The notes under the pieces: model-generated
Told to the model about the DNA's origin: nothing
What the model saw: only the letters and a program-made list of their open reading frames with translations
The model's database searches: none
From: Phenylobacterium sp.
GTDB taxonomy: Bacteria; Pseudomonadota; Alphaproteobacteria; Caulobacterales; Caulobacteraceae
Length of the DNA stretch: 64,000 nucleotides
Direction: 5' to 3'
NCBI RefSeq assembly: GCF_016793225.1
Contig: NZ_JAEUMN010000050.1
Coordinates: forward strand, 62,001 to 126,000
Shown: in pieces, positions 5,123-55,222 of the stretch
Layout of the letters: every line of letters starts with the position of its first letter
Numbering within the stretch: position 1 is the stretch's first letter
Translations under genes and position numbers: made by a program

Positions 5123-5167
5123 GGCCGCCCAGTTACTCCTGAGGGGTAGAATGTCGAGGCGGACGCT

Positions 5168-32068: not shown

Positions 32069-32170
32069 AGCACAGGGGCGACAGCCTCCGTACTGCTACT
32101 TAGGGGACGCTCCTCAATATGAGGCCACGCTCGCAGCCGATAGCAATTCGCCATCGGATTGGAGCCTCCC

Positions 32171-32824: not shown

Positions 32825-32882
32825 GCCAGGCGCCTGAGCGGCCGCAGGCGTTCACCGGCCGCGCCGTCGTTGGAGCCCCCCC

Positions 32883-33749: not shown

Positions 33750-33758
33750 GCCGGGCCG

Positions 33759-34109
33759 ATGTTGCGTTCCATCCTCATCGTCGCCGGCCTGGCCCTCGCG
33801 GGCTGCGCCGGCGGCGCGCCGCCGCTGGCCTCGACGCCGGCGCTCCCGAAGCTGGACGCCGAGCAGCAGCGCGGTCACGAGATCGCGGTGCGCCGGTGCG
33901 GCGGATGCCACACCGTGGGGCTGGACGACGGCGGCGCCCAGGAAGGGCCGGCGTTCTACCGGCTGGCCCGGCGCTACAACGCCATCTCGCTCGAGCGGCG
34001 GTTCGCCGAGGTGTCGGCCCACGGCTTCGACCGAATGCCGCCCGTCTCCTTCACCCGGGACGAGGCCGCCGCGCTCATCGCCTACTTCGAGACGCTCCAG
34101 GGCAATTGA
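33759..34109 (+). CDS. Small c-type cytochrome lipoprotein
   Basis: A 116-aa protein. A lipobox is visible in MLRSILIVAGLALAGCAGG, so Cys16 should be lipidated and the protein anchored to a membrane face in the periplasm. The heme motif is CGGCHTVG (residues about 47-54) and a methionine in FDRMPPVSF is the likely second iron ligand. It fits small class I cytochromes c that carry electrons to terminal oxidases. Placed between two universal stress genes and downstream of fixK, it may feed electrons to the cbb3 oxidase. That is an inference. Confidence 0.85.
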   Translation: MLRSILIVAGLALAGCAGGAPPLASTPALPKLDAEQQRGHEIAVRRCGGCHTVGLDDGGAQEGPAFYRLARRYNAISLERRFAEVSAHGFDRMPPVSFTRDEAAALIAYFETLQGN

Positions 34110-34127
34110 GCCCCACCGGAGGCGCGC

Positions 34128-36031: not shown

Positions 36032-36103
36032 GGCCGGCCGCCGCGCGCGAAAGCCCCTGATGGCCGCTTGCCACGTTCCGACTTGTTGCCTAGGCGAAGC
36101 CGC

Positions 36104-37603
36104 ATGAACGCGGCGAGTGAACCGCGCGCCGATGTGACCGGGCGCTGGAACCGGGCGGCCGGTTACGTGGCCGCGGCGGTCGCCGTTGCGGCGGCCGTCG
36201 GCGTGCGCCTGCTGCTGGATCCGATCCTGCAGGACGACCTCTCGTTCCTGCTTTTCGTGCCGCCGCTGCTGGTCGGCGCGGCCATCGGCGGGATGGGTCC
36301 GGCGCTGCTCGCCGGCGGGCTCTCGCTGGCCCTCGGAGTCGGCATCGCGGGATTCCCGAACGCGGACGAGCCGGACGGCCTCGTGCGCATGCTGATCTTC
36401 GCCGCCCTCACCCTGGCGGTCGGCGGGTTCGGCTCGCGGATGATCCACAGCCGCCGCGCGGTCCAGCGCTACGTCGACGACCTGCAGGCCCGCGAGGCGC
36501 ACCTGCAGTCGATCCTCGACACCGTGCCCGACGCCATGATCGTCATCGACGACCACGGGCAGATCGTGTCGTTCTCGAGCGCGGCCGAGCGTCAGTTCGG
36601 CTGGACCTCGGCCGAGGTGATCGGGAAGAACGTCAGCATGCTCATGCCCGACCCCTACCGGTCGGCGCACGACAGCTACGTCGACCGCTACAAGCAGACT
36701 GGCGAGCGGCGGATCATCGGCATCGGGCGGGTGGTCGTGGGCGAGCGGAAGGACGGCTCCACCTTCCCGCTGGAGCTCGCGGTCGGGGAGATGCGCTCGG
36801 GCGACCGGCGCTACTTCACCGGCTTCCTGCGCGACCTCACCGAGCGGCAGGCGGCCGAGCGGCGCCTCCAGGACCTGCAGGGCGAACTGGTGCACGTCTC
36901 GCGGCTGACGGCCCTCGGCGAGATGGCCTCGGCGCTGGCGCACGAGCTCAACCAGCCCCTGACCGCGGCCACCAATTTCATGAAGGGCTGCCTGGTGCTC
37001 ATCAAGCGCAAGCCGCTGGACGAGGCCCGGCTCGAGCAGATGATCTCCCAGGGCGCCGACCAGGCGCTGCGCGCGGGGCAGATCATCCGCCGCCTGCGCG
37101 ACTTCGTGGCCAAGGGCGAGGCCGAGCGGCGCATCGAGAGCCTGCCGAAGCTGCTCGAAGAAGCCGGCGCGCTGGCGATGGTGGGCGCCCGGGAGCGCAG
37201 CATCCGACTGCGCTACGACATCGAGCGCAGCGTCAACCTGGTCCTCGCCGACAAGGTCCAGATCCAGCAGGTGGCGCTCAACCTCATCCGAAACGCCATC
37301 GAGGCGATGGAGGAATCGCCGCAGAAGGACCTCGTCGTCGGCGCGAGGCCGGCGCCCGAGGACATGGTCGAAGTGTGGGTCAGCGATACCGGCCACGGGA
37401 TCAGCGCCGAGGCGGCCGAGCAGCTCTTCCAGCCCTTCATGACCACGAAGAGCCACGGCATGGGCATCGGTCTTTCCATTTCGCGTACGATCATCGAAGC
37501 TCACGGCGGTCGGATCTGGGTCGAGCCCAACCCGGCGGGCGGGGCCATCTTCCGGTTCACGCTTCGCGGCGTCAGTCCCGAGGAGCTTCTCGACCATGAG
37601 TGA
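36104..37603 (+). CDS. fixL: Oxygen sensor histidine kinase FixL
   Basis: A 499-aa membrane-bound kinase. Residues about 18-112 hold four hydrophobic segments. The heme PAS domain (about 130-250) has the axial histidine in [13 protein letters not shown] (H189), with R195, I204 and R209 placed exactly like R206, I215 and R220 of Bradyrhizobium FixL; the equivalent of its H214 is Arg203. The kinase H-box is [12 protein letters not shown] (H280), followed by [18 protein letters not shown] and [12 protein letters not shown]. Without oxygen it should phosphorylate FixJ. Its stop overlaps fixJ by 8 bases. Confidence 0.93.
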
Positions 37604-38204
37604 CGCGGTCGTACACCTGATCGACGACGACGAGGCGATCCGGGTCTCCCTTGGGTTCCTGCTGGAGATGAACGACCTCCCGTCGCAGACCTATGCGTCG
37701 GCCGGCGAGTTCCTGGAGGTGGCCGGGACCCTCGAGCGCGGCTGCATCGTCACCGACGTCCGCATGCCCGAGATGAACGGCCTGGAGCTGGTCAAGCGGC
37801 TGAAGGAAATGAACGTCGCCCTTCCGGTCATCATGATCACCGGCCATGGCGACGTGCCGATGGCGGTCGAGGCCATGCGGGCGGGCGTGGTCGACTTCAT
37901 CGAGAAGCCGTTCGAGGACGAGACGCTGCTCAGGTCGATCCAGTCGGCGCTGAACCTGGGCGCGGAGACCGGCGCGCAGGCCCAGGAGCGGAAGCACTTC
38001 GAGGAGATGCTCGCCACGCTGTCCGGCCGCGAGAAGGACGTCCTGCGGGGCGTCATCGCGGGGAAGATGAACAAGGTCATCGCCTACGAGCTGGGCATCA
38101 GCCCGCGCACGGTCGAGGTCTATCGGGCGAACGTCATGAGCAAGACCAAGGCGAGCGGGCTCTCCGAGCTCGTGCGGATCGCCCTGCTTGCGGGCTTTTC
38201 GTGA
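37596..38204 (+). CDS. fixJ: Response regulator FixJ
   Basis: A 202-aa two-domain regulator. The receiver has acidic residues in LIDDDEAIR, the phosphorylated Asp54 in [12 protein letters not shown], Thr in [10 protein letters not shown] and Lys in IEKPF. The C-terminal LuxR-type HTH shows [20 protein letters not shown] and [14 protein letters not shown]. Phosphorylated FixJ activates fixK-type promoters. The ATG lies inside the end of fixL. Confidence 0.95.
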
Positions 38205-38207
38205 CGT

Positions 38208-38221
38208 TTGCTTAAGATCAA
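38208..38221 (+). promoter_or_regulatory. FNR/FixK-type half-degenerate box
   Basis: TTGCTTAAGATCAA keeps the right half (ATCAA) and TTG of the left half of the anaerobox. It lies between fixJ and the receiver gene, 36 bp before that start. It suggests a FixK-dependent promoter for the receiver protein. Confidence 0.45.
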
Positions 38222-38256
38222 GGCCCCCGCTGCGGCGTCCGCTTAGGCTCGGTTCC

Positions 38257-38646
38257 ATGGATCAGAGCCTCAGCCGTCCGCTGATCGTCGTCGTCGATGA
38301 CGACCTCGCCGTCCGGCGCTCGCTGGAGTTCGCCCTCGACCTCGAGGGTTTCGCCGTCGAGACCTACGAATCCGGCGAGGCTCTGCTGCTGCGCAACGCC
38401 GGCCAGACGCCGGCCTGCCTGGTGCTCGACGAGCGGCTGCCCGGGGTGTCCGGGCTCGGGGCCCTGCGCCAGCTTCGCGCGCGCCACGCCGAGACGCCGG
38501 CGATCCTGATCACCAGCCACCCGGGGCCGCGCCTGCGCGAAGCCGCGGCCAGCGAAGGCGTGCCGATCCTCGAGAAGCCCCTGCTGAGCGAGACGCTGGT
38601 GGCGGCCATCCAGGCGGTGGCCGAGGTTCCCCACGACCTCCGCTGA
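38257..38646 (+). CDS. Single-domain response regulator
   Basis: A 129-aa receiver without output domain. Phosphorylation residues are complete: DDD in VVVDDDLAVRR, Asp58 in LVLDERLPGVSG, Thr86 in ILITSHPG and Lys107 in ILEKPLL. Such proteins act as phosphate sinks or regulate a kinase by binding. Downstream of fixLJ and behind a FixK-type box, it could be a feedback element on FixL, in the way FixT or FxkR-type proteins modulate the pathway in other species; this is an inference. It converges with hemN. Confidence 0.85.
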   Translation: MDQSLSRPLIVVVDDDLAVRRSLEFALDLEGFAVETYESGEALLLRNAGQTPACLVLDERLPGVSGLGALRQLRARHAETPAILITSHPGPRLREAAASEGVPILEKPLLSETLVAAIQAVAEVPHDLR

Positions 38647-38667
38647 GCCGCCGGGCCGCCGGCCTTC

Positions 38668-40050
38668 CTACAGCGTCCTGGAATGGCGCTCCGCCTGCGG
38701 GACCAGATAGGCGTCGAACGCGGCGCACACCGACCTCACGACCAGCCGGCCGTTGCCCACGATCCGCACCTCTGCGCCATGGATCTCGGCCAGCCCGTCC
38801 TGCACGAACGGCTCCAGGGCGGCCATCGCACCGCGCAGTGCCTCGATGGACCGTCCGTGACGGACGCAGACGTCGGCGAGATCCACGGCCAGGTCGCACA
38901 TGAGGCGCTCGATGATCTCGGCGCGGAAGCGATCCTCGGCCGTCAGCGCCACGCCCCGGGCGACCGGAAGGCGACCCGACTGGACCGCCGCCCGCCAGCC
39001 CAGCTCCTGGGCTACGTTCTGGACGTAGCCCTGCGGCAGCCGGCCGATCGCCGAGGCTCCGAGGCCCAGCAGGGTCGTCGCGGCGTCGGTGGTGTAGCCC
39101 TGGAAATTGCGATGCAGCCGGCCCTCCCGCTGCGCGACGGCGAGTTCGTCCGTCGGCAGGGCGAAGTGGTCGAGCCCGATCCGGACGTACCCCTCGGACA
39201 CGAAGCGGTCCGCGGCCGCCTCGGACTGCTCCACGCGCGCCGCCGCCGACGGCAGCGCCGCTTCGTCGATCAGCTGCTGGTGGGCCTTCATCCACGGCAC
39301 GTGGGCGTAGCCGAAGAGCGCGACGCGCTCGGGCCGAAGCCGCACCACCGCATCCACCGTGGCCAGCGTGTTGGCGGTGGTCTGGTGCGGCAGGCCGTAC
39401 ATCAGGTCCAGGTTCACCGAGTGGACGCCGACCTCGCGCAGCCATCCGACGGCCGCCTCGATCTCCTCGAAGGTCTCCCGGCGGTTCACCGCGGCCTGCA
39501 CCTCGGGGTCCAGGTTCTGCACGCCCAGGCTGGCGCGCCGCAGACCCTGGCGGCCGGCGGCCTGCACCCAGACGCGGGTGAGCACGGCCGGATCGAGTTC
39601 GGCGGCGATCTCGAGGCCGGGCTCCGCATCGAAGGCGCCGCGCAGGCCGGACATCACCGCTTCGAGCTCGTCCGCGGTCAGCATGTTGGGCGTCCCGCCG
39701 CCGAGGTGCACGGCGTTCATCGTCAGCCGGCCGGGCGCGGCGGCGGCGAGCAGCTCCGTTTCCTTGAGCAGCAGCTCGACGTATTCGCCGATCGGCTTGC
39801 GCCGGGTCACGGCCCGGGTGTTGCAGCCGCAGTACCAGCACAGCCGGCTGCAGAACGGCACATGGACATAGACCGACACCGGCTCGTCCGCCGGCAGCGC
39901 CGCCAGCCACTGACGGTAAGCCGCCTCGTCCACGGACGGCGTGAACTGCAGGGCGGTCGGATAGCTGGTGTACCGCGGCGCCCGGCCATCATAGCGGGCG
40001 ACGAGCCCCGCAAGGTCGCGGGCGCGGTCGGGAAACGCGATCAGGGTCAT
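38668..40050 (-). CDS. hemN: Oxygen-independent coproporphyrinogen III oxidase HemN
   Basis: A 460-aa radical SAM enzyme for heme synthesis without oxygen. The cluster motif is FCSRLCWYCGCNT (CxxxCxxC plus the extra HemN cysteine). Further HemN blocks are HLGGGTPNMLTADE, DLMYGLPHQT, RIGLDHFALPTDELA, and HRNFQGYTT. The start at 40050 gives MTLIAFPDRARD and removes a spurious upstream stretch covering ccoS. An anaerobox 34 bp upstream overlaps the ccoS stop. It supplies heme for cbb3 oxidase at low oxygen. Confidence 0.95.
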   Translation of the reverse strand: MTLIAFPDRARDLAGLVARYDGRAPRYTSYPTALQFTPSVDEAAYRQWLAALPADEPVSVYVHVPFCSRLCWYCGCNTRAVTRRKPIGEYVELLLKETELLAAAAPGRLTMNAVHLGGGTPNMLTADELEAVMSGLRGAFDAEPGLEIAAELDPAVLTRVWVQAAGRQGLRRASLGVQNLDPEVQAAVNRRETFEEIEAAVGWLREVGVHSVNLDLMYGLPHQTTANTLATVDAVVRLRPERVALFGYAHVPWMKAHQQLIDEAALPSAAARVEQSEAAADRFVSEGYVRIGLDHFALPTDELAVAQREGRLHRNFQGYTTDAATTLLGLGASAIGRLPQGYVQNVAQELGWRAAVQSGRLPVARGVALTAEDRFRAEIIERLMCDLAVDLADVCVRHGRSIEALRGAMAALEPFVQDGLAEIHGAEVRIVGNGRLVVRSVCAAFDAYLVPQAERHSRTL

Positions 40051-40083
40051 GCGCGCACCATCGCCGATGGGCGGCGCGGCGCC

Positions 40084-40097
40084 CTGATCCAGATCAA
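40084..40097 (-). promoter_or_regulatory. FNR/FixK anaerobox of hemN
   Basis: On the minus strand TTGATCTGGATCAG matches the TTGAT-N4-ATCAA consensus at 9 of 10 positions. It is 34 bp upstream of the hemN ATG and overlaps the ccoS stop codon (40094-40096). Confidence 0.8.
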
Positions 40098-40252
40098 GCC
40101 GCCGGGCGGTCCTCGGGATCGGGGACCAGGATCCGCGCCGCGTCGCCCGCCGGATCCTCGTACTGGCCGTCGCGCAGCGTCCACCAGAACGCCGCCAGGG
40201 CCATGAGCCCCAGGCCAAGCGAGAACGGCGCGAGGAAGATCACGATGTTCAT
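40094..40252 (-). CDS. ccoS: cbb3 oxidase maturation protein CcoS (FixS)
   Basis: A 52-aa membrane protein starting MNIVIFLAPFSLGLGLMALA with one transmembrane helix, followed by AFWWTLRDGQYEDPAGDAAR, the diagnostic CcoS tail (WxxxxGQYEDPxGDAxRIL). It is needed for cofactor insertion into the cbb3 oxidase. The ATG overlaps the TGA of ccoI (ATGA). It is the last gene of the ccoG-H-I-S unit and its stop overlaps the hemN control site. Confidence 0.95.
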   Translation of the reverse strand: MNIVIFLAPFSLGLGLMALAAFWWTLRDGQYEDPAGDAARILVPDPEDRPAA

Positions 40253-42414
40253 CGGCGGGCTCCCGTGCGCAGCGCGTTCAGGGTCACGACCAGCGACGAG
40301 CCCGACATGGCGATCGCCGCGACGAAGGGGTTCACCAGGCCCAACATCGCCGCCGGCGCGGCGATCAGGTTGTAAAGGGCCGCGAGGCCGAAGTTCTCGA
40401 GCGCCCGGGCGCGGGCGCTGCGCGCCACGTCTATGGCGTCGACGATGGGCCCCAGGTCGTCCCCGGAGAAGACCAGGTCGGCGGCGTTCTGGCTGGCCTC
40501 GAGCGCCGAGCCGGGGGCCATGGCGGCGTGCGCCTTGGCGAGCGCGCCCGCGTCGTTGAGGCCGTCGCCGACCATGAGCACCTTGCGCCCCTGCGCGGCC
40601 AGGGCGTCGACCACTGCCGCCTTGTCCTGCGGCGTGCAGGCCGCGGACCAGTCGGCGACCCCGGCGGCCGCGGCGGCGCGGCTCACGGGGGCCTCGACGT
40701 CGCCGGAGAGGATCTGCACCGAAAGGCCCCGCGCGTGCAGCGCGGCGACCACGTCGGCGGCGTCGGACCGCAGGGTGTCGGCGAACGCGAACCGGAACCG
40801 CGTGTCGCCGTCGTAGCCGAACCACAGCTCGGTCTCGGAGCCGTGGCTCTCGACGCCGAGGAAGGCGGCCTTGCCCAGCCGGCACCGGCGTCCGTCCACC
40901 ACGCCCTCGACGCCCTGGCCCGAGATCTCCCGGACGTCCTCGGCGAGGGGGCCGTCGCCCGCTTCCTCGGCCAGGGCGCGGGCCAGCGGGTGGCGCGAGG
41001 CGCGCGCCAGCGGGGCCGCCATCACGAGCGCCGCATGCGCCGTCGGCTTCAGCCGCGGCCGGCCGAGCGTCAGCACCCCGGTCTTGTCGAACACCACGTG
41101 ATCCACCTCGGCGAGGCGCTCCAGCGCGGCGCCGGACTTCACGAGCACGCCTCGGCGGAACAGCCGCGCCGATGCGGTGATCTGCACCGCGGGCGCCGCC
41201 AGGCCCAGCGCACACGGGCAGGTCACGATCAGAACCGCCACCGCGCGGATCAGCGCTTCCCGCGCGTCGAGCCCAAGACCCCAGCCGCCGACGAAGGTCA
41301 TCAGGGCGACCGTGTGGACGACCGGCACGTAGATGGCCGCCGCGCGGTCGGCGAGGCGCACGTAGCGCGACTTCGACTGGGCGCCGAGTTCGACGAGGCG
41401 CGCGATCGCCGCCAGGGCCGAATCCTCGGACCGCGCCACCGCCCGCACGCGCAGGGTCCCCGAGAGATTCAGCGCGCCGGCCCGGCAGAGCTGGCCGGCG
41501 GCCACGGCGACGGGCGCGGTCTCGCCGGTGAGCAGGCTGTTGTCGAGTTCCGAAGACCCCGTGGCGATCTCGGCGTCCACGGGCAGGCGCTCGCCCGGCC
41601 GGACGAGCAGGATGTCGCCGATGCGCACCTGGCCGACCGGCACGGCCGTCAGGGCGTCGGCCGCCCCGACCAGCGTCGCCGTCGGGGCCTGCAGCGCCAG
41701 CAGGTCGGCGGCCGCGCTGGACGCCCGGGCGCGCAGCCGGTGCTCGAGCCAGCGGCCGATGAGCAGCAGGAACAGCAGCGAGACGGCGGCGTCGAAGTAG
41801 ACGTCGCGGCCGCGCAGCACGGTCTCGGAGAAGCTGATGGCCAGCGTCAGGAGCACGCCGATGGAGATCGGCACGTCCATGTTCGCCCGCCGCGCCCTGA
41901 GCGACCGCCAGGCCGAGCGGAAGAACGGCATGCCGGCGTAGAGGGCGCAGGGCGCGCCGACGATCCCGGAGAACCACATCATGAGCGTCCGCGACGCCGG
42001 GCCGAGTTCCTGCCCGAACAGCCCCGCCCAGATCGGCACCGAGAACATCATGGTGTTCATCACGCCGAACCCGGCCACGGCCATGGCGAGGATCAGGGCG
42101 CGACCCTCGCGGTCATACGCGGCGCGCGCCTGTTCCGGGTCGAACGGGGTCGAGGGGTAGCCCAGGCGCTCCAGCGCTTCGACGACCGCCGCCGGGTCGC
42201 CGGCTCCCGGCCGGAACGCGACGGTCAGCCGCTTCTGGCTGAGGTTGACCCGGGCCCCCGTGACCCCGGGAAGCGCCTGGACGGCGCGCTCGACCTTGCC
42301 CATGCAGCCGGCGCAGCGGACGTCGGGCACCAGCAGGTCGAGGCTCGAGCCCCCGCCGGCTCCGGGTTTGAGGAAGGCGCCGAAGTCGCGGGGGACGTCC
42401 GAGATCAGCGCCAC
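40249..42414 (-). CDS. ccoI: Copper-transporting P1B-type ATPase CcoI (FixI)
   Basis: A 721-aa inner-membrane copper pump that supplies the CuB centre of cbb3 oxidase. An N-terminal heavy-metal domain has CAGCMGKVERAV. The transmembrane CPC motif is in VLIVTCPCALGLAAP. The phosphorylation site is VVFDKTGVLTLG (Asp), the class IB HP motif is ASRHPLARAL, and the hinge is VGDGLNDAGALAKAHAAMA. Translation starts with GTG at 42414, overlapping ccoH by 10 bases. Length fits the FixI branch. Confidence 0.95.
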   Translation of the reverse strand: MALISDVPRDFGAFLKPGAGGGSSLDLLVPDVRCAGCMGKVERAVQALPGVTGARVNLSQKRLTVAFRPGAGDPAAVVEALERLGYPSTPFDPEQARAAYDREGRALILAMAVAGFGVMNTMMFSVPIWAGLFGQELGPASRTLMMWFSGIVGAPCALYAGMPFFRSAWRSLRARRANMDVPISIGVLLTLAISFSETVLRGRDVYFDAAVSLLFLLLIGRWLEHRLRARASSAAADLLALQAPTATLVGAADALTAVPVGQVRIGDILLVRPGERLPVDAEIATGSSELDNSLLTGETAPVAVAAGQLCRAGALNLSGTLRVRAVARSEDSALAAIARLVELGAQSKSRYVRLADRAAAIYVPVVHTVALMTFVGGWGLGLDAREALIRAVAVLIVTCPCALGLAAPAVQITASARLFRRGVLVKSGAALERLAEVDHVVFDKTGVLTLGRPRLKPTAHAALVMAAPLARASRHPLARALAEEAGDGPLAEDVREISGQGVEGVVDGRRCRLGKAAFLGVESHGSETELWFGYDGDTRFRFAFADTLRSDAADVVAALHARGLSVQILSGDVEAPVSRAAAAAGVADWSAACTPQDKAAVVDALAAQGRKVLMVGDGLNDAGALAKAHAAMAPGSALEASQNAADLVFSGDDLGPIVDAIDVARSARARALENFGLAALYNLIAAPAAMLGLVNPFVAAIAMSGSSLVVTLNALRTGARR

Positions 42415-42893
42415 GTCAGCCTCCGCTCGGCGGTGAACGGCCGCCCGTCGGGCGTGCGCGCGTCGACGGTGAGGTCCCAGGCGCCCGTCAGGATGCCGCC
42501 CTTGGCCACGTAGCGGCCGGGGGCCGCCTCGGCGAAGGCCAGGGCGATGCGGCCCGCCTCGGTCGCGGGACGCTCCAGCCGGCCGGTGATGGAGAGGCCC
42601 CGCACGGGCTCGCCCTGGGCGTCGCGGAACTCGACGGCCACCGCGCCGGGCAGCGCCTCGGCGGCGGCCTGCCAGCCGAGCTTCTCTTGCGCCTCGAGCT
42701 GGGCGATGCGCCGGTTGTAGATCAGCCCGTCCTCGTAGGGCGTCACCGAGACCTGCCCCGGGAAGGTGCGGATCGCCATCACCATGAAGGCGGCGTCGAC
42801 GCTCGCGACGGCGACGAAGAAGGCCGTAACGCCGGCCGCGACGTGCCAGCCGCGGATCGTGAAGCTCGGACGGGACGTTGCGGCGCGGCTCAT
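42405..42893 (-). CDS. ccoH: cbb3 oxidase assembly protein CcoH (FixH)
   Basis: A 162-aa protein with one N-terminal transmembrane helix (WHVAAGVTAFFVAVASVDAA) and a periplasmic Ig-like domain. The family start FTIRGWHVAAG and the VSVTPYEDGLIYNRRIAQL segment fit FixH. It interacts with CcoN/CcoI during oxidase assembly. The ATG overlaps the ccoG stop and the 3' end overlaps the ccoI start. Confidence 0.9.
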   Translation of the reverse strand: MSRAATSRPSFTIRGWHVAAGVTAFFVAVASVDAAFMVMAIRTFPGQVSVTPYEDGLIYNRRIAQLEAQEKLGWQAAAEALPGAVAVEFRDAQGEPVRGLSITGRLERPATEAGRIALAFAEAAPGRYVAKGGILTGAWDLTVDARTPDGRPFTAERRLTWR

Positions 42894-44392
42894 GGCGCTT
42901 CGGCTCCGGTGAGGAAGGTGGTGGCGGCCTTCACGTCGCCCTTGGGTCCGCCGATGGTGAAGGCGGCCGGCAGGCTCTTGGCGGTCAGGGACTCGGCCGG
43001 CGCGCTCACGAAGACCCGCACGGCGCGCACCTCGTTGGGCGGCACCACGGTGCGCACGACGCCCTCGGGCTCGCCGGGGCTCGAGAGCCGGGCGCCCGGC
43101 ACGCCCGCGAAGGACACGGCGACGGGCCGCGGCTCGAACGTGCGGTTGGCGATCTTCAGGGTGTAGCCGTTGCGCACCGAGCCGTCGTGCAGCCGCACGA
43201 AGGTCGGGTTGCGGTCGCGCAGGGCGTGCAGGGTCATGGGCGCCCGGTTCACCAGGCCCCAGAGAACGATGCCGGACACCAACGTGAGAGCGACCGTGTA
43301 GTAGATCGTCCGCGGGCGGACGAACCGGTACGTGGGCGCCGTCTTGCAGCTCCGCGCGGCGACGGCGGAATCCGAGTCGTAGGCGATCAGCGCGCGCGGG
43401 CGGCCGACCTTGTCCATGATCTCGTCGCAGGCGTCGATGCAGAGGCCGCAGTTGATGCATTCCAGCTGCGGGCCGTTGCGGATGTCGATCCCCATCGGGC
43501 ACGCGACGACGCAGGCGTTGCAGTCGATGCAGTCGCCCCGGCCGGTCCAGTCGGCGCCCTTCTTGTGCGCCCCGCGCGGCTCGCCGCGATCGTAGCGGTA
43601 GGTCACCTGCAGCGAATGCTCGTCGAGCATCGCGCCCTGGATGCGCGGCCACGGGCACATGTAGGTGCAGACCTGCTCGCGCATGTGGCCGGCGAAGATG
43701 TAGGTCGTCGCGGTCAGCAGGCCGCACGAGATGTAGGACTGGATCGGCGCGCGTCCGGTCCAGAACTCGACCAGCAGCGTCGGGGCGTCGCGGAAGTAGA
43801 AGATCCAGGCGCCGCCCGTGCCGAAGGCCACGCCCAGCCACACGAGATGCTTGCCGCCCTTGCGCCACAACTTGTCGAAGGACCACGGCGCCGCGGCCAG
43901 GCGCATCCGCGCGTTCCGGTCGCCCTCGAACAGCCGCTCGACGTAGATGTACAGGTCGGTCCAGACGGTCTGCGGGCAGGCGTAGCCGCACCAAAGGCGC
44001 CCGAACAGCGCCGTCACCAGGAACAGCGAGAGGGCCGCGATCACCAGCAGGCCGGTGATGAAGTACACCTCCTGCGGCCAGAGCTGGATCCCGAAGAAGT
44101 AGAAGCGGCGGCCGAAGAAGTCGACGAGCACCGCCTGGTCCGGCAGCGCGCCGGGACGCTCCCAGCGGATCCAGGGCGTGACGTAGTAGACCGTCAGCGT
44201 CAGGATCATCAGCGCCCACTTCAGCCGCCGCCACTGACCGTGCACCAGCTTCGGGTAGATCGGCTGGCGGGGCTTGTAGAGGCTGCCCTTGGCGTCGCCC
44301 TTGGCCCGTGCGCGCTCGGCTGCGGACACGGGTCCGCCCGCAGGCTGGCCGCCGGCGCCGCCGGCGGCCCGCTTGTCGATGACGACCGTCAC
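42890..44392 (-). CDS. ccoG: Cytochrome c oxidase accessory protein CcoG (FixG/RdxA)
   Basis: A 500-aa membrane iron-sulfur protein with about five helices. Two 4Fe-4S motifs are CIDCNACVVACPMGIDI and CINCGLCIDACDEIM, and membrane cysteines lie in LWCGYACPQTVW and CTYMCPWPRIQG. The C-terminal Ig-like domain follows. CcoG is thought to reduce Cu(II) to Cu(I) for the oxidase. The GTG at 44392 overlaps the TGA of ccoP, so accessory and structural genes form one run. Confidence 0.95.
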   Translation of the reverse strand: MTVVIDKRAAGGAGGQPAGGPVSAAERARAKGDAKGSLYKPRQPIYPKLVHGQWRRLKWALMILTLTVYYVTPWIRWERPGALPDQAVLVDFFGRRFYFFGIQLWPQEVYFITGLLVIAALSLFLVTALFGRLWCGYACPQTVWTDLYIYVERLFEGDRNARMRLAAAPWSFDKLWRKGGKHLVWLGVAFGTGGAWIFYFRDAPTLLVEFWTGRAPIQSYISCGLLTATTYIFAGHMREQVCTYMCPWPRIQGAMLDEHSLQVTYRYDRGEPRGAHKKGADWTGRGDCIDCNACVVACPMGIDIRNGPQLECINCGLCIDACDEIMDKVGRPRALIAYDSDSAVAARSCKTAPTYRFVRPRTIYYTVALTLVSGIVLWGLVNRAPMTLHALRDRNPTFVRLHDGSVRNGYTLKIANRTFEPRPVAVSFAGVPGARLSSPGEPEGVVRTVVPPNEVRAVRVFVSAPAESLTAKSLPAAFTIGGPKGDVKAATTFLTGAEAP

Positions 44393-45315
44393 CGGCCCGC
44401 CGCGCTGGTCCCTGCGCCCTCCTGCTGGGCCGGACGGATCGGCTCGGCCGCGCCGCCGGCGTTCGCGTGCACATAGACGGCCAGCGCCTTGATGGTCTCG
44501 GGCGAGAAGCGCGCCTCCCAGGTGGGCATCACGCCGTTGCGGCCGTTCCAGATCTGGTCGCGGATCGCGGCGCGGGTCGAGCCGAACAGCCACTCGCCGT
44601 CCGTCAGGTCGGGCACGCCGCGCGCGACGTCCCCGGTGCCGGCCGGACCGTGGCACGCGGCGCACTGGTCGGCGAAGGTCTGGCGGGCCCGGCCGACCGC
44701 GGCGGCGTCCGCCTTGCGGCGGGACAGCGCGACCACGTACTCGGTCAGGTCGTCGACCTGGCGGCCGTCCAGCATCTGGTCGCGGCCGAAGGCCGGCATG
44801 ACCGTGCCGCCGCGGGCCGCGGGGTGCCCCGAACGGACGCCGACCGCGATCGTGTGCCGGATGTCGTCCAGCGAGCCGCCCCAGAGCCAGACGTCGTCCC
44901 GCAGGTTCGGGTAGCCCTTGGCCCCCGCCCCGCCCGCGCCATGGCAGGTCGCGCAGTTGTCGCCGAAGACCGACTGGCCCACCTGCATGGCGTAGGATTG
45001 CAGGTCGGGATCAGCCTCGATCTGCTGCAGGCTCGCGTTGCGAAGCTTCGCCTCGCCGGCGTGGCGTTGCTTGGCGAGCGCGCCCAGCTCGGCGGCCACC
45101 GCCGAACGGTCGGACAGGCCCAGCGTGCCGCGGGTGTAGCTAGTGATCCCGGGCCAGGCTGGCATCAGGATCCAGTAGACCACCGACCAGGCGATGCAGC
45201 CGTAGAAGACCCAGAGCCACCAGCGCGGCAGCGGCGTGTCCAGTTCCTTGATGCCGTCCCACTCGTGGCCCGTGGTTTCGGTGCCAGAGTGCTCGTCGCG
45301 TTCGCGCTCAGACAT
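44389..45315 (-). CDS. ccoP: cbb3 oxidase diheme cytochrome subunit CcoP (FixP)
   Basis: A 308-aa membrane-anchored diheme cytochrome c. The N-terminal segment has HEWDGIKELDTPLPRWWLWV, the FixP signature and single helix. Heme motifs are CATCHGAGGAGAKGYPNL and CAACHGPAGTG, with Met ligands in VMPAFG and VMPTWEA. It passes electrons to CcoO. The start overlaps ccoQ and the stop overlaps ccoG. Confidence 0.97.
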   Translation of the reverse strand: MSERERDEHSGTETTGHEWDGIKELDTPLPRWWLWVFYGCIAWSVVYWILMPAWPGITSYTRGTLGLSDRSAVAAELGALAKQRHAGEAKLRNASLQQIEADPDLQSYAMQVGQSVFGDNCATCHGAGGAGAKGYPNLRDDVWLWGGSLDDIRHTIAVGVRSGHPAARGGTVMPAFGRDQMLDGRQVDDLTEYVVALSRRKADAAAVGRARQTFADQCAACHGPAGTGDVARGVPDLTDGEWLFGSTRAAIRDQIWNGRNGVMPTWEARFSPETIKALAVYVHANAGGAAEPIRPAQQEGAGTSAAGR

Positions 45316-45475
45316 GGTCGTCGTCCTCGAGAGGAAGCTGTGCGAGGCGGCGGAACGCCTCCTTGTTGCGGGGCCAGAGCGCGTAGGCGAGGCCGCCCAT
45401 GAAGATCAGGCCGAAGTAGATGGTGCCGCCCTGCTGGGCGAAGGCGGCCACCGTCTCGTAGGTGAGGCCGCTCAT
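45308..45475 (-). CDS. ccoQ: cbb3 oxidase subunit CcoQ (FixQ)
   Basis: A 55-aa protein, [20 protein letters not shown] at the start, one transmembrane helix ([15 protein letters not shown]), then [18 protein letters not shown]. This is the normal CcoQ layout; the subunit stabilises the oxidase. Its start overlaps the ccoO stop and its stop overlaps the ccoP start by 8 bases, keeping the order ccoN-ccoO-ccoQ-ccoP. Confidence 0.93.
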
Positions 45476-46209
45476 CTCAGGTTCTCCGGATCGGTAGCCT
45501 TGTAGGTCTTGAAGTCGACCATGGTGCCCAGGACCTGGAGGTAGGCCACGAGCGCGTCCATCTCGGTCAGCATCTCGGGGTTCCCGTCGAAGTCGCGCTG
45601 GGTGACCTTCGCGCCGTAGCGGGTCTTGAGGCCCGAGCGCTCGCCGGCGAAGGCGTCGACCTGCGTCTCCAGATCCTCGCGGGCGTTCTTCAGCTGCGCG
45701 TCGGTGTAGGGCACCCCGACCCCCCGCAGGCTCGCGAGGTGCTTCTCGATCGCCCGGTAGTCCAGCTCGCGCTTCGCCAGGAAGGCGTAGGGCGGCATGT
45801 TGGACTCCGGCACCACCGAGCGCGGGTTCGTCAGGTGGTCGACGTGCCAGCTGTCGGAGTACTTGCCGCCGACGCGGGCGAGGTCAGGCCCGGTGCGCTT
45901 GGAGCCCCACTGGAAGGGGTGGTCGTACATGCTCTCGGCGGCGAGGCTGTAGTGGCCGTAGCGCTCGACCTCGTCGCGCAGCGGCCGGATCATCTGCGAG
46001 TGGCAGACGTAGCAGCCTTCGCGGACGTAGATGTTGCGCCCGGCCTGCTCGAGCGGCGTGTACGGGCGGACGCCCTTCACGTTCTCGATGGTGCTCTCCA
46101 GGTAGAAGAGCGGGCTGATCTCGACGAGACCGCCGATCGAGACCGTGATGATGATCCCGATGATCAGCCACAGGGAGTGGCGTTCGAACCTGGCGTGATG
46201 TTTCCACAT
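45472..46209 (-). CDS. ccoO: cbb3 oxidase monoheme subunit CcoO (FixO)
   Basis: A 245-aa monoheme cytochrome c with one N-terminal helix ([19 protein letters not shown]). The heme motif is [20 protein letters not shown] and a methionine in [10 protein letters not shown] is the sixth ligand. [20 protein letters not shown] is a further family block. It accepts electrons from CcoP and delivers them to CcoN. It follows ccoN by 12 bp. Confidence 0.97.
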
Positions 46210-46221
46210 GTGCGGGGGCCC

Positions 46222-47880
46222 TTACTCGGCCGCTGCGAGCAGCGGGTTGGGCGCCGGCGCCGACAGGTCCGCGGTCGCGGAGCTGGGCATGCGGATCGTG
46301 CGCCACAGGTTGTAGGACATGATCACCGCGCCTGCGAGGTACATGACCCCGCCGAGGGTGCGGATGACGTTCTCGATGTGCTTGGCCGCGACGGTCTCGA
46401 CGAAGGCGTTCGCGAGGTAGCCCTGCGGCGTGTATTCCCGCCACATCAGGCCTTCCATGATCCCGGAGACCCACATCGCGGCGATGTAGAGGAGGATGCC
46501 GGTGGTCGCGATCCAGAAGTGCCACTCGACGAGCGTGTTCGAGTACAGCCGGTCCTTCTTCCACAGCCACGGCACCAGGCAGTAGATCGCGCCGAAGCTG
46601 ATGAAGCCGACCCAGCCGAGCGCGCCGGAGTGCACGTGGCCGATGGTCCAGTCGGTGTAGTGGCTGAGCGCGTTGACGGCCCGGATGGACATCAGCGGGC
46701 CCTCGAAGGTCGACATGCCGTAGAAGGCGATGGCGACGACCATCATGCGGACCACGGGGTCGGTGCGCAGCTTGTCCCACGCGCCGGACAGGGTCATCAG
46801 GCCGTTGATCATGCCGCCCCAGGACGGCATCCACAGCATGACCGAGAAGGTCATCCCGAGCGTCTGCGCCCACTGCGGCAGCGCCGTGTAGTGCAGGTGG
46901 TGCGGGCCGGCCCAGATGTAGATGAAGATCAGCGACCAGAAGTGCACGATGGACAGGCGGTACGAGTAGACCGGCCGCTCCACGCGCTTCGGCACGAAGT
47001 AGTACATCATGGCCAGGAAGCCGGCGGTGAGGAAGAAGCCCACCGCGTTGTGGCCGTACCACCACTGGGTCAGGGCGTCCTGGACGCCTGCGAAGGCCGA
47101 GTAGCTCTTGGTCTCGAGCAGGCCCACGGGCAGGGCCGCATTGTTCACCAGGTGCAGGATCGCGATGGTGACGATGAAGGCCAGGTAGAACCAGTTGGCC
47201 ACATAGATATGCGGCTCCTTGCGCTTCCAGATCGTGCCCAGGAAGACCAGCAGGTAGGCCACCCAGACGATCGTCAGCCACAGGTCCACGTACCACTCGG
47301 GCTCGGCGTACTCGCGGCCCTGGGTGATGCCGGCCACGTAGCCGGTCGCCGCCAGCACGATGAAGAGCTGGTAGCCCCAGAACACGAACCACGGCCAGGC
47401 GCCGCCGAACAGCCGCGCCTTGCTTGTGCGCTGCACCACGTAGAAGGACGTGGCGATCAGCGCGTTGCCGCCGAAGGCGAAGATCACCGCCGAGGTATGC
47501 AGCGGGCGCAGACGCCCAAAGTTCAGCTCGGGGAACTGCGGGAAGTAGAAGATGTTGGGCCACGAGAGCTGGGCCGCGACGAGCCCGCCGGCGGCCAGGC
47601 CGGCGATCGCCCAGAACATGGTGGCGATGACGCCCGCCCGGACCACGCCGTCGTGGTAACGCGTCGGCTCGTCCTTGAAGCGGCCGTTGGCCAGCCCCAC
47701 CGCCATGACCATGAAGGCGGTGACGAACGCACCGATCATGACCCAGCCGTGGAAGCGGAACGCCGGGTCGGGCGAAAACGCGGTGGCGAGGATCGCCAGA
47801 AGGGCGGCGACGCCCGTGAAGGTGAACAGGACGAGCGCGTTGAGGGGCGCATCGTCGCGTGAGACAGCAGCCTGGGTCAT
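46222..47880 (-). CDS. ccoN: cbb3 oxidase catalytic subunit CcoN (FixN)
   Basis: A 552-aa heme-copper oxidase subunit I of the C family with about 12 helices. The histidine ligands for hemes b and b3 and CuB are in [49 protein letters not shown] and [19 protein letters not shown]. The C-family cross-linked Tyr is in the WWYGHN helix region context. It reduces O2 to water at very low oxygen and pumps protons. An anaerobox lies 61 bp upstream. Confidence 0.97.
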
Positions 47881-50801: not shown

Positions 50802-51530
50802 TCAGGCCGAGCTCACGCGGTGCGGATCGCGCCCGGGCCGGCTGGGCGCGCCCGTCCGCCGCGCACTGGCGCGCACGAGCAGCCCCAGCGCCTCAACCGG
50901 CGTCAGGCGAGCCGGCTGGAACCCGCCGCCGAGCGTCGAGTCCTCCAGGAGAGCCGCCATGGCCGGGTCGTCGCGGCTCAGGCAGACGTCCCACCCGTCG
51001 AAGAGGTTGGCCAGGATCGGCTCGGAGGAGACGACCGTGAAGGGGCCGTCGGGCGGCAGGCTCGCCACGCCGCCGTAGTAGCGCTGCACCGCCTCGCGGG
51101 GTCCTTCGAGGACGTGCAGCAGTTGTCCGTCCAGCGCCAGCGCGAAGCCGCTGAGACCTTCGGGCGGCCGGGGGCTCATCAGGCGCGCGATCCCCGCAGC
51201 CGTCACACTGCCCCGGTAGATCAAGCGTTGCCGGTTGGTGGGTGACGGGCCCGCCGCGCCGTCCCGCGCGGAAGGTTCGTCGGCGACCCTGCGCCACACC
51301 CCCTCGGCGCCCGATTCCGACTCGAAGCGGATGCCCAGCGCCTCGAACGCCTCGCTGATGGCGTTCAGCGTCCTGACATTGGCGTTCACCTGGCCGCGGA
51401 TGTTCTCCAGGCGCTTGATGGTCTCGACGCTCAGGCGCGTCAGCCTGGCGAGATCCGCCTGCTCCAGGCGCGCGAGCGCCCTCGCCGCCCGCAGCTGTTC
51501 GCCGCTGAACCCGATCGTACGGTACGGCAT
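50802..51530 (-). CDS. XRE-type HTH protein fused to a degenerate BLUF domain
   Basis: A 242-aa two-domain protein. Residues about 9-66 are a Cro/C1 (XRE) HTH (FSGEQLRAARALARLEQADL, then LSVETIKRLENIRG and LNAISEAFEALGIRF). Residues about 100-200 match a BLUF flavin photosensor: RQRLIYRGSV (Tyr105), GFALALDGQLLHVLEGPRE, and LFDGWDVCLS (Trp180). The essential Gln is His139 (LLHVLEG instead of FLQxLEG) and the flavin Asn segment is RPPEGLSG. It is probably light-blind or altered. I chose the ATG at 51530, next to the HTH; a longer upstream frame is low-complexity. It is a paralogue of 52077-52862. Confidence 0.8.
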   Translation of the reverse strand: MPYRTIGFSGEQLRAARALARLEQADLARLTRLSVETIKRLENIRGQVNANVRTLNAISEAFEALGIRFESESGAEGVWRRVADEPSARDGAAGPSPTNRQRLIYRGSVTAAGIARLMSPRPPEGLSGFALALDGQLLHVLEGPREAVQRYYGGVASLPPDGPFTVVSSEPILANLFDGWDVCLSRDDPAMAALLEDSTLGGGFQPARLTPVEALGLLVRASARRTGAPSRPGRDPHRVSSA

Positions 51531-52076
51531 GGCGGCTACCCGCATCCGGGCGACAGGTGGCGACGGCCGTGGGCCCGGGCGATCGCCGACACCGGGCCAG
51601 GACGCCGCCTGTGTTCGTCCGAAGGATCGAGGATCGAGGCCGCGGCTGGGAATGACATCTCGTGCTCTCTGGTCGTCGGGAGACACGCCGCTCACGTCAT
51701 GGACCGCCGCGTCCCTCCCGAATGGGGGGGTAAGCCAGCCCGTCTGACGCGGGCCTGGGGCACCGACCCGGCCGCTCGCGCGTCCGGCGCGCGCACGTTT
51801 CGAAGAGAGAGTCCGGCAGCTTGCGCCCAGCCCCCTCGGGTCCTCTCCCGCGCCTCTCTCGGGCGCAGTTCGCGAACCCTCTACGCACGTCGCTGCGCAA
51901 CGAAGTGCGGTGATTTGGCGGTCACAGAAGGGGGCAGTTTCGCGCGGACCGCGCGGAGTCCGCGAGGTCGCGGAGCGGACCTGTGCCACAGGGGGTATCG
52001 CTGACACTCAGACTGCTTTGCCTTACACTTGGAGCGTCATTCCACCCGGGTGCGCGACAGAATGTCGCGCTGCGTG
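51531..52076. other. 546-bp spacer between the two HTH-BLUF genes
   Basis: No convincing gene is seen on either strand. The DNA holds the perfect palindrome CGCGCGGACCGCGCG (51941-51955) and a less GC-rich patch near 52005-52040 (ACTCAGACTGCTTTGCCTTA) that could carry the minus-strand promoter of the first HTH-BLUF gene. The spacer is far longer than usual in this window. Confidence 0.4.
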
Positions 52077-52862
52077 TCAGAGGGGCTCGCGCTCCCGCGT
52101 CCTGCGCGTGGACGCCGCTGGACGAACGTCGGCGGCATCCCCCTGGCGATCGCGCACGATGGTCAGGAGACCCAGCGCGGTGGCCGGCGACAGCGAGTCC
52201 GGACGGAAGCCGTCCCGCAGCGCGGGCTCGCGCGCGAACACCTCGTCGTCCGCGGCGATCACCCCGTGGCACATCGGCCAGTCCGCGAAGTTGCGGCCGG
52301 CGATCGACCGCCGCTCGACCACGGTGATGTTGCTGTGACGCGGATCGCAGGAAATGGCGCCGAACACGCGCAGGACGACGTCATCGGGCCCCTCCAGCGC
52401 CTGCAGGAACCGCCCGTCGCAAGCGAGCAGAGCGCCCGTGACTCCGCGTTCCAGGTTGCGCGGGGCGGCGACGTCGACGATCCGCGCCAGCCCGGCCTCG
52501 GTCTGGTCCCGCGGGTCGACGCAGATGCTGTGGTAGATCAGCCGGCACAGCCCACCGGAAGCGCTTGTCCGCGCCGGAGTTCGTCCCCGCCCAGGCTTCA
52601 CCGGCGCGCCGCCCGGGGGCAGCCGGCAAACGCCCAGCCCGCTCTCGCATATGTCGAAGACGACGCCGAGGTCGGCGAACGCCCCCGTCAGCGCGATGAC
52701 CGTTCGGCTGTTGGCCTCGACCGGACCGTGGGTACGCTCAAGTCGCTTGATCGTCTCGAGACTCAGCCCGCTGAGGCGCGCGAGCTCGGTCTGCTCGATC
52801 CGCATGAGCGCCCGCCCGGCGCGGATCTGTTCGCCCGTCAGAGCGGATCTAGCCGACCACAT
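52077..52862 (-). CDS. XRE-type HTH protein fused to an intact BLUF blue-light domain
   Basis: A 261-aa probable light-responsive regulator. Residues about 8-70 are an XRE HTH (LTGEQIRAGRALMRIEQTEL, LSGLSLETIKRLERTHG). Residues about 104-205 form a BLUF domain with all signature residues: Tyr110 in CRLIYHSI, Asn136 in PRNLERGVTGALL, Gln154 in RFLQALEGPDD, then CDPRHSNITVVERR and Trp195/Met197 in FADWPMCH. In the BLUF family these bind FAD and rearrange hydrogen bonds on blue light. The tail (about 210-261) is basic. An AT-rich, palindrome-dense spacer with divergent cheB lies upstream. Confidence 0.88.
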   Translation of the reverse strand: MWSARSALTGEQIRAGRALMRIEQTELARLSGLSLETIKRLERTHGPVEANSRTVIALTGAFADLGVVFDICESGLGVCRLPPGGAPVKPGRGRTPARTSASGGLCRLIYHSICVDPRDQTEAGLARIVDVAAPRNLERGVTGALLACDGRFLQALEGPDDVVLRVFGAISCDPRHSNITVVERRSIAGRNFADWPMCHGVIAADDEVFAREPALRDGFRPDSLSPATALGLLTIVRDRQGDAADVRPAASTRRTREREPL

Positions 52863-53270
52863 GGCGCCCCCCGATCACCGCGCCGGCCGTCACGGTCGGA
52901 CGGGTGCGACCAGATGGCGCAACCGGCCGCGCGGACGCAACGCGTTGAATCGCGGAGCTCGGGATTCCGTGCAGCCTATTCAAGGACATACGCTTCACAG
53001 CCGTATCGCGGACCCCCTTTCGATGTTTATCGAATGGCGCGCGCGATCAACTTAGATAAGCACAAAAATACCCCTAAGGTGCACCTCGGTACCCGATATG
53101 GGTAATTACCAGATCCCATCTTCATGATATTGAGACCTAATCTCACGGATACTCAAAATGAGCTTTAGAATGCCTTTACCGTGCACCTGCGATCTACCCG
53201 AACACAGGATCGGGTCGCGCACGCCTTAGGTGTCTCCAAACCCGCCCTGACGTTCGAGAGAGGGGCAGGC
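52863..53270. promoter_or_regulatory. Palindrome-rich divergent control region (HTH-BLUF / cheB)
   Basis: The 408-bp gap is clearly AT-richer (about 52970-53175) than the rest of the window. It holds AGGTGCACCT (53077-53086), ACCC-GATAT-GGGT (53091-53103), TGAGA-CCTAA-TCTCA (53131-53145) and CTCA-AAA-TGAG (53152-53162). Such dyads suit a dimeric XRE regulator. No coding sequence is convincing; a GTG-started extension of cheB from 53181 lacks a ribosome site. Confidence 0.55.
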
Positions 53271-54389
53271 ATGGTGTCGAGTACCGCAGGGGCGATCGCG
53301 GCGCAGCGATCGGCTCGGGTGATGGTGGTCGACGACTCGGCGATCGTGCGTGGGCTCATCTCCCGCCATCTCGGCGCGGCGCCGGGAATCGAGGTCGTCG
53401 GCACCGCGGCCAACGGCGAGATCGCCCTGCGCGAACTGCATCGGCATCCGGTCGACGTGGTGATCCTCGACCTCGAGATGCCGGTGATGGACGGCATGAC
53501 GGCCCTTCCCCGGATCCTGGCCGAGCACCCCAAGACCCGCGTGATCATCGCCTCGACGCTCAGCCTGCGGAACGCCGAGATCAGCCTGCGCGCCCTGCAG
53601 CTCGGGGCGAGCGACTACGTGCCGAAGCCCGAAGGCGGCCTGGCCAGCGCCGAGTCGTTCCACGACGAACTGGTCATGAAGATCCGGGCGCTCACCGGGG
53701 TGTCCGAACGGCGCGCCGAGGCCCGGCCGCCCCCGGCCGCGAGGCCTGCCCCCGCGCCGGCGGCGGCGACCCCGGCGCCCGCCGTCGCCGCCGTCCGCGG
53801 CCCACGCCTGAAGCCCACGGTGCTGGCCATCGGCGCGTCGACAGGGGGCCCGTCGGCGCTGACGCGCTTCTTCGAGTCCATCCGCGGCGCGATCCACCAG
53901 CCGATCCTCTTGACCCAGCACATGCCCGCGACCTTCACCTCGCTTCTGGCCGAGCAACTGTCGCGCGCCGGCCAGCGACCGTGCAGCGAAGCCCGCGACG
54001 GCGAGCCGCTGCGCCAGGGTCACTGCTACGTCGCCCCGGGGGGCTGGCACATGGTGGTGGCCCGCGAAGGCGCCATGCCGGTCATCCGCCTGAACCAGGA
54101 GCCGCCGGAGAACTTCTGCCGGCCGGCCGTGGATCCGATGCTGCGCAGCGTCGCGGCCTATTACGGACCCTCGGCGCTCGCCATCATCTTCACCGGCATG
54201 GGATCCGACGGCGCCAAGGGCTGCCAGGCGATCGCCCAGGCCGGCGGACGTTTCATTGTGCAGGACGAAGCCTCAAGCGTCGTCTGGGGTATGCCCGGCG
54301 CCGCGGCGGCGACCGGCTTGGCTGAGGCGGTGCTGCCGCTCGAGCAGATCGGCCCGTGGGCTCGCCGCATCGCTGGAGCGCCGGAATGA
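53271..54389 (+). CDS. cheB: Chemotaxis methylesterase CheB
   Basis: A 372-aa response regulator esterase that demethylates chemoreceptors. The receiver has VMVVDDSAIVRG, Asp in VVILDLEMPVMDG, the Thr/Ser position in IIASTLS and Lys in YVPKPEGG. A Pro/Ala linker (about 175-205) leads to the esterase with the Ser in AIGASTGGPSAL, His in LLTQHMPATF and Asp in FTGMGSDGAKGC. The ATG at 53271 gives the receiver at its normal position. It overlaps cheR by four bases. No other che genes are adjacent. Confidence 0.93.
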   Translation: MVSSTAGAIAAQRSARVMVVDDSAIVRGLISRHLGAAPGIEVVGTAANGEIALRELHRHPVDVVILDLEMPVMDGMTALPRILAEHPKTRVIIASTLSLRNAEISLRALQLGASDYVPKPEGGLASAESFHDELVMKIRALTGVSERRAEARPPPAARPAPAPAAATPAPAVAAVRGPRLKPTVLAIGASTGGPSALTRFFESIRGAIHQPILLTQHMPATFTSLLAEQLSRAGQRPCSEARDGEPLRQGHCYVAPGGWHMVVAREGAMPVIRLNQEPPENFCRPAVDPMLRSVAAYYGPSALAIIFTGMGSDGAKGCQAIAQAGGRFIVQDEASSVVWGMPGAAAATGLAEAVLPLEQIGPWARRIAGAPE

Positions 54390-55222
54390 TCGACCCCGAC
54401 TACGAAAACTTCTGCCGGCTGGTCCGCGACCGCTCGGGCCTCGTCCTCACGCCCGCCAAGGCCTACCTGGTCAACAGCCGCCTCGAACCCGTCGCGCGCG
54501 GACTCGGGCTGGCCGGGGTGCCGCAGCTGCTGGCTCAGCTCCGCGCCGGCGCCGCCTCCTCGACGATCGACAGGTGCGTCGACGCCATGGCCACGCACGA
54601 GTCCTCGTTCTTCCGCGACGCCGCGCCGTTCGAGCAGCTCGCCAAGACGGTCCTTCCGCCGCTGATCGAGGCCCGGCAGCACACCAAGCTGCTCCGCGTC
54701 TGGTGCGCGGCGTGTTCCAGCGGCCAGGAGCCCTACTCGGTGGCCATGGTGCTGCAGGAGATGGGTCCGCGCTTCTCCGGCTGGCGGCTGGAGATCACCG
54801 CCACGGACATGTCGGAGAGCATCCTGCGCAAGGCGCGCGCCGGCATCTACAGCGACTTCGAGGTCCGCCGCGGCCTGTCCCCCGAGCGCCTCTCACGCTG
54901 GTTCACCCGCAAGGGCGAAGCCTGGGAGGTCTCGTCCACCCTGCGCGCCATGATCCAGTTCCGGCCGCACAACCTGCTCGCCGGGTCCAAGGGGCTGGGC
55001 GTGTTCGACGTGATCTTCTGCCGCAACGTGCTCATCTACTTCGACGTCGACCGCAAGCGGCAGGTGCTGGGCGAACTGGCCCGCGCGCTGGCGCCCGACG
55101 GCAACCTGTTCCTCGGCAGCGCCGAGACGGTGCTGGGCGTCACCTCAGACTTCGAGGGCGCGCCGGGCTCACGCGGTCTCTATCGCCTTCCGCGCCTGGT
55201 CGCCGCCGCCAAGTCGGCCTGA
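54386..55222 (+). CDS. cheR: Chemoreceptor methyltransferase CheR
   Basis: A 278-aa SAM-dependent methyltransferase that methylates glutamates of chemoreceptors. The N-terminal helical domain ends with MATHESSFFRDAAPFEQL. The SAM-binding part has VWCAACSSGQEPYSVAM, ITATDMSESILRKAR and VFDVIFCRNVLIYFD, the typical CheR signatures. ATG overlaps the cheB stop (ATGA). With CheB it sets receptor adaptation, but the receptor is elsewhere. Confidence 0.94.
   Translation: MIDPDYENFCRLVRDRSGLVLTPAKAYLVNSRLEPVARGLGLAGVPQLLAQLRAGAASSTIDRCVDAMATHESSFFRDAAPFEQLAKTVLPPLIEARQHTKLLRVWCAACSSGQEPYSVAMVLQEMGPRFSGWRLEITATDMSESILRKARAGIYSDFEVRRGLSPERLSRWFTRKGEAWEVSSTLRAMIQFRPHNLLAGSKGLGVFDVIFCRNVLIYFDVDRKRQVLGELARALAPDGNLFLGSAETVLGVTSDFEGAPGSRGLYRLPRLVAAAKSA

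Follow-up and report, generated by a model that had tools for sequence, protein, structure and literature searches.

In transcription factors of the EL222 type, a LOV photosensor and an HTH reside on one chain, with the HTH of EL222 at the C-terminus. DNA binding by EL222 follows blue light, as described in the accessible parts of two reviews (PMC4844311, PMC9614035). For BLUF sensors the described routes differ from this: in the AppA-PpsR and BluF(YcgF)-BluR(YcgE) systems the light signal reaches transcription via a separate DNA-binding protein, and the short PixD-type proteins (Tll0078, Slr1694; PDB 8i98, 1x0p, 2hfn) consist of a BLUF domain and a C-terminal cap, with no DNA-binding domain on the chain. 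According to the accessible part of a 2014 census, 64% of BLUF proteins are short and 34% carry EAL, and no fusion to an HTH is mentioned (PMC4844311); likewise, in the accessible part of a review from 2022 on light-regulated expression, EL222 appears as a LOV-HTH protein and no BLUF-HTH protein is named (PMC9614035). The terms HTH-BLUF and BLUF-HTH were not found in the literature searched, and papers pairing BLUF with XRE as whole words concerned other subjects, judging by their titles and the beginnings of their abstracts. The earlier note on this DNA knew of no characterised example, and our searches agree, with no described HTH-BLUF protein among the matches listed; since subscription papers and domain-architecture databases lay outside these searches, the architecture may be listed there.

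The window, by which we mean the whole stretch of 64,000 nucleotides analysed, contains a gene whose product, P0001, places an XRE-type HTH, a linker, a BLUF domain and a C-terminal cap in that order on a single chain (Table 1). As in EL222 the photosensor and the DNA-binding domain share one polypeptide; in P0001, however, the HTH is N-terminal, the sensor is a BLUF domain, and light-dependent binding is a proposal. The Pfam comparison upheld the domain calls of the earlier note only in part: the P0001 BLUF exceeds the curated PF04940 cut-off (81.8 against 25 bits), while the BLUF of the neighbouring P0002 (19.3 bits) and the HTH_3 match of P0001 (15.1 bits against a curated 23) fall short. 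The BLUF domain of P0001 also matches solved BLUF proteins (2byc, 9.9e-11; Tll0078 1x0p, 1.3e-10; AppA 2bun, 2e-10), and the five residues named in the earlier note, Y110, N136, Q154, W195 and M197, were all confirmed by aligning the 19 fusions with 15 standalone BLUFs from the host's family.

Table 1. Features of the HTH-BLUF locus and its neighbourhood (positions in the window).
Feature	Positions	Strand	Basis and remarks
P0001, HTH-BLUF gene, 261 aa	52077..52862	-	Photochemical residues intact
P0001 XRE-type HTH, residues 8-65	52668..52841	-	Weak Pfam match; family HTH_31 matches; model helices; C.Kpn2I match
P0001 BLUF domain, residues 105-197	52272..52550	-	PF04940 match; solved BLUF structures
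P0001 C-terminal helical cap, residues 203-244, related to the PixD-type BLUF cap	52131..52256	-	Profile match to 8i98/1x0p
P0002, HTH and degenerate BLUF, 242 aa	50802..51530	-	Start corrected to ATG 51530
cheB, divergent from P0001	53271..54389	+	PF01339 2.5e-62 and receiver domain; open frame reaches up to GTG 53181
cheR, adjoins cheB	54386..55222	+	PF01739 9.2e-61 and CheR_N
Candidate operator, P0001-cheB	53066..53086	.	Top PWM match in the window, non-training site; p = 0.001, local shuffles
Second candidate operator, in the gap from the end of P0001 to P0002; ATG 51530 is about 490 bp downstream	52021..52041	.	p = 0.001, local shuffles

For the HTH half, HTH_31 is matched at E<=0.01 by 15 of the 19 members of the fusion family, the predicted model has the helical HTH fold, and six residues of the recognition region (S34, T37, K39, R40, L41 and E42) are invariant in all 18 full-length fusions. 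PDB matches listed for the P0001 model cover residues 3-81 only, with no BLUF chain among them, the BLUF part of the model being weak. C.Kpn2I (PDB 4yba) is a controller C protein of a restriction-modification system; unlike P0001 it has no sensor domain, and its context is restriction rather than chemotaxis. At the other end of the protein, the model contains helices at residues 203-210 and 226-244, predicted with low confidence, and a profile of the 19 fusions aligns with 8i98 at 5.3e-24 as far as profile position 240, which gives the fusions the BLUF-plus-cap layout of the PixD type. Since the XRE HTH precedes the BLUF, P0001 differs from the PixD type in carrying another domain. From these comparisons P0001 is well supported, as an architecture, as an HTH-BLUF one-component regulator, and to that extent the direct coupling of BLUF to HTH that had been proposed is upheld. 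The resemblance of BLUF and cap to PixD-type proteins, the closest by profile, could instead mean that P0001 senses light through protein partners, as PixD or AppA does, with an HTH that light does not switch. Characterised BLUF regulators do act through partners, in the accessible parts of two reviews (PMC4844311, PMC5812497), but the strict conservation of the HTH beside the BLUF and an operator-like site at P0001's own promoter region (see below) make this reading improbable.

The neighbouring gene tells a different story. The earlier note had taken P0001 and P0002, both on the minus strand at 50.8-52.9 kb, for an HTH-BLUF pair. They are paralogs, 39% identical, and P0001 does have both domains; the BLUF of P0002, however, lies below the Pfam cut-off and in the 34-sequence alignment has kept Tyr and Trp and lost Asn, Gln and Met. 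The HTH_31 score of P0002 is 26.8 bits, against a curated cut-off of 27. An upstream start at 52007 was rejected because its 159 extra codons look non-coding, with a GC content by codon position of.74/.72/.69 compared to.73/.55/.91 in the rest of P0002 and.73/.56/.87 in P0001. The host has a third paralog, G000c, on contig C121, which keeps only Gln of the five photochemical residues and pairs with P0002 in the BLUF tree (support 99/91); host contig C173 encodes, in addition, a canonical short BLUF of 154 aa. P0002 and G000c, which keep the HTH and have lost BLUF photochemical residues, are likely to be light-blind relatives. The common architecture of the two adjacent genes and the Tyr and Trp of P0002 would fit a module of two blue-light-responsive transcription factors, a reading rendered highly improbable by the residues lost from P0002, its low BLUF score and the accessible part of a review, in which a BLUF lacking the central glutamine is said not to reach the red-shifted signalling state (PMC4555020). 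With key residues lost from P0002, and from G000c as well, the two-gene light module is not supported; judged by their residues, P0001 is a credible light switch and P0002 is not. The DNA photolyase gene (window 8782-10194, minus strand; PF00875, 7.8e-23) that had been put forward in favour of a light role is about 41 kb away, and is weak evidence.

HTH-BLUF is a real and uncommon architecture, a variant of the one-component photoreceptor transcription factors. When 390 genomes from the host's family were searched with a profile, the two-domain matches listed amounted to 19 fusion genes in 14 genomes; within the host's genus 4 of 101 genomes carry the fusion. One of the 19, the second fusion of genome G024, is split by a frameshift, and this break (L091 6532-7318) is either real or an assembly error. 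Outside the family, no match covering both domains was listed in 299 genomes of the order, 385 of the class and 398 of the phylum, samples that include family members (cut-offs 1e-30, 1e-26 and 1e-20); the genome profile searches scored the best 6-9 candidates per genome. One candidate, G706, with a BLUF match inside a long open frame, was rejected because the BLUF frame there stops early and carries no HTH. Plasmid-borne fusions were rejected too: 27 plasmid records match one domain or a part, and none holds 80% of P0001 in one place. No fusion was found in viral contigs, and a genome-contig scan with P0001, which detects close relatives only, yielded two loci, one with BLUF only and one with XRE only. 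Concerning origin, the BLUF tree neither rejects (p-AU 0.37) nor demonstrates a single fusion event, and the HTH tree needs at least four label changes, of which its starred branches force only one.

Across a 408 bp intergenic region (52863-53270), P0001 faces cheB, and this setting recurs in the family. A tblastn search of 18 loci with che references placed 12 of the 19 fusion genes in loci with cheA, cheB, cheR or cheW, or 13 when counting G297, whose contig end carries a CheB-like N-terminus. The BLUF tree puts P0001 within a group of 11 fusions (support 86/93), nine of them che-linked, ten with G297. The commonest order, seen at six loci (G010a, G024b, G395, G216, G219 and G196), comprises cheA, cheW and an MCP, cheR-cheB on the opposite strand, the fusion and a PAS hybrid kinase; a globin accompanies the MCP at G010a, G024b and G395, and in G395 on the same chain (Bac_globin-PAS-MCP). 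Six fusions lie outside cheA/B/R/W loci: G010b, G024a, G057a, G057b (MCP and hybrid kinase only), G187 (hybrid kinase only) and G328 (LuxR-type response regulator). The G057b fusion is followed, after about 1.1 kb, by a protoglobin-MCP and a PAS hybrid kinase (L093 8862-12597). Among the loci of small solo XREs of the same HTH subfamily, which have no BLUF, 5 of 17 contain cheA/B/R/W and G050 has cheY; among the short-BLUF loci 0 of 7 contain cheA/B/R/W, one of these being only 3.3 kb long. Since che genes occur at both fusion and solo XRE loci, a che-locus regulator exists with and without BLUF. Elsewhere in the window, genes of a low-oxygen regulon occupy 32159-47880: a Crp/Fnr-type regulator, a HemN-like radical SAM protein, a FixG-like protein, a FixL/FixJ-like PAS histidine kinase with a LuxR-type response regulator, and FixO with a COX1-family (cbb3-like) oxidase subunit.

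Between P0001 and cheB lies a palindrome, TACACCT-N-ARGTGTA, which, with variants, is also present beside many relatives including solo XREs. A PWM trained on seven sites, that of P0001 excluded, ranked the P0001-cheB site first in the window with 21.5 bits (the best of 30 null windows reached 17.9), followed by sites at 5131 (18.3 bits) and 52021 (17.2 bits). An ORF that has no Pfam match at E<=0.001 (4499-5062, minus strand) begins about 70 bp downstream of the palindrome at 5131-5151. Local shuffles placed 14 of 31 intergenic regions at the minimum p = 0.001, six of them training sites scored left-out and eight outside the training set, with three more at p<0.05; as the palindrome was first spotted by eye, these tests are held-out rather than blind. 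The remaining 14 regions had no candidate site. The fusion upstream regions without one in this analysis include those of G010b, G024a, G057a, G057b, G252, G234, G328 and G000c, of which G252 and G234 are che-linked all the same, and none was seen where the kinase genes of G216, G219 and G196 begin, in the regions ahead of them; the six fusions away from cheA/B/R/W lack an upstream operator or are not che-linked. The distance from site to start codon is about 204 bp in P0001, compared to 21-28 bp in six relatives.

The solo XREs provide the most independent set of sites: in 32 whole-locus scans (100 shuffles each), 8 of the 17 solo loci have a candidate site adjoining the XRE, at p 0.01-0.02 (G137, G132, G322, G324, G119, G325, G328 and G416a), so that proteins such as those of G137, G132 and G322 have the HTH subfamily and candidate operator of the fusions, some of them at the same che locus. 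Host contig C121 has a candidate site between cheY and cheA (p = 0.001). The palindrome accompanies XRE genes with or without BLUF and thus probably belongs to the HTH. It could also belong to another regulator, the HTH-BLUF proteins acting elsewhere: similar palindromes occur in the host by chance or at copper-ATPase genes, and host-wide counts equal controls. Its recurrence beside XRE genes of the subfamily, fused or solo, in many genomes, and the lack of a candidate site in whole-locus scans of four short-BLUF loci, make such an assignment doubtful, and we consider it as improbable as signalling through partners. Any regulon looks local, given that across the genome the pattern is no more frequent than in controls (14 vs 17 and 62 vs 58); a genome-wide regulon was rejected on these counts and because two of the better matches lie at copper-ATPase genes. 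Those two palindromes, upstream of copper-ATPase-like genes (G000:C80:3583-3601 and G000:C23:27985-28003), are probably another regulator's and resemble CsoR sites. Two further observations concern LuxR-type regulators: a palindrome, ATTACCCGTAGCGGGTAAT (L122, G000:C151:27914-27932), stands just before a LuxR-type response regulator gene with a hybrid kinase gene nearby, and in G328 a like site precedes the LuxR-type regulator adjoining the fusion.

While the DNA-binding half is conserved, the sensor half has decayed repeatedly. The complete Tyr/Asn/Gln triad survives in 8 of 19 fusions and in all 15 standalone BLUFs (Fisher p = 0.0005, a test that ignores relatedness), which leaves 11 fusions and no standalone BLUF with a loss, and all five photochemical residues are present in 4 of 19 against 15 of 15; the standalone BLUFs, like the solo XREs, were drawn from top-scoring matches and may be biased as comparison sets. 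Given triad losses in 11 of the 19, the role that the family has conserved is not light sensing. Nine of the 19 (L088, L094-L100 and L102) end in the motif C-x-L-A-x-x-C-x-D-x-x-C, and eight of these nine have lost a residue of the Tyr/Asn/Gln triad, compared to three of the ten without the motif; the nine are related by tree, so the association may be one event. In these nine and in the second fusion of G024, a second Cys directly follows the Cys after the Trp-x-Met site of the BLUF; the first of the two is also found in 15 of 15 standalone BLUFs, and P0001 has neither the second Cys nor the tail. A C-terminal Cys-rich sequence is described for AppA in the accessible parts of PMC4844311 and PMC3509220.

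These patterns may indicate that light sensing is not the chief function of the fused BLUF, which would instead act, on a regulator of the chemosensory cluster, as a redox or oxygen sensor based on flavin, thiol or metal, or as a dimerisation module. The residue losses, the Cys tails, the globins found with chemoreceptors, the protoglobin-MCP near G057b and the lack of reaction-centre genes in 14 of 14 fusion-bearing genomes would all fit, the last of these also leading us to discard phototrophic hosts. Since P0001 keeps all five residues and has no Cys tail, and the Cys-tail association may count once, we regard this reading as rather unlikely. Somewhat better placed, if still tentative and short of even odds, is a view of the whole family in which blue light, through a single-chain HTH-BLUF protein, sets the expression of a chemosensory cluster that is often globin-linked, the light sensor having been repeatedly switched off or converted to a redox or metal sensor, in one lineage with a new three-Cys tail, and the DNA-binding half and its operator having stayed fixed.

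For the locus itself our main reading, with a probability of about one half, is that P0001 is a one-component regulator of itself and of cheB-cheR, tuned by blue light, and that P0002 and G000c are light-blind. Architecture, residues, gene order and operator statistics were computed; from them we infer flavin binding, dimerisation, binding of the palindrome by P0001, the sign of regulation and light dependence. The XRE HTH of P0001, probably as a dimer, would bind the palindrome in the region common to P0001 and cheB-cheR, controlling its own expression and probably also that of the divergent cheB-cheR. The BLUF would be an added input that binds flavin and alters the dimer state or DNA affinity of the HTH under blue light, and the chemoreceptor-adaptation enzymes would be expressed according to light. 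Such input appears possible in P0001, and probably not in P0002, G000c or other fusions without Tyr, Asn or Gln.

New in this work are the loss of sensor residues with the Cys tail, the che linkage, and the palindrome common to fused and solo XREs. If the main reading is true, P0001 would be a direct BLUF-to-DNA switch, a single protein whose operator and neighbouring target are both predicted; how the output of a BLUF is passed to an effector, an open question, could then be tested directly, and the protein could serve as a compact optogenetic part. The family would provide a natural gradation on one DNA-binding scaffold, with apparently photoactive BLUFs at one end and light-blind ones at the other. 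Chemotaxis adaptation enzymes would be expressed under the influence of light in bacteria that lack reaction-centre genes, and these results suggest a light-tuned switch for swimming behaviour.
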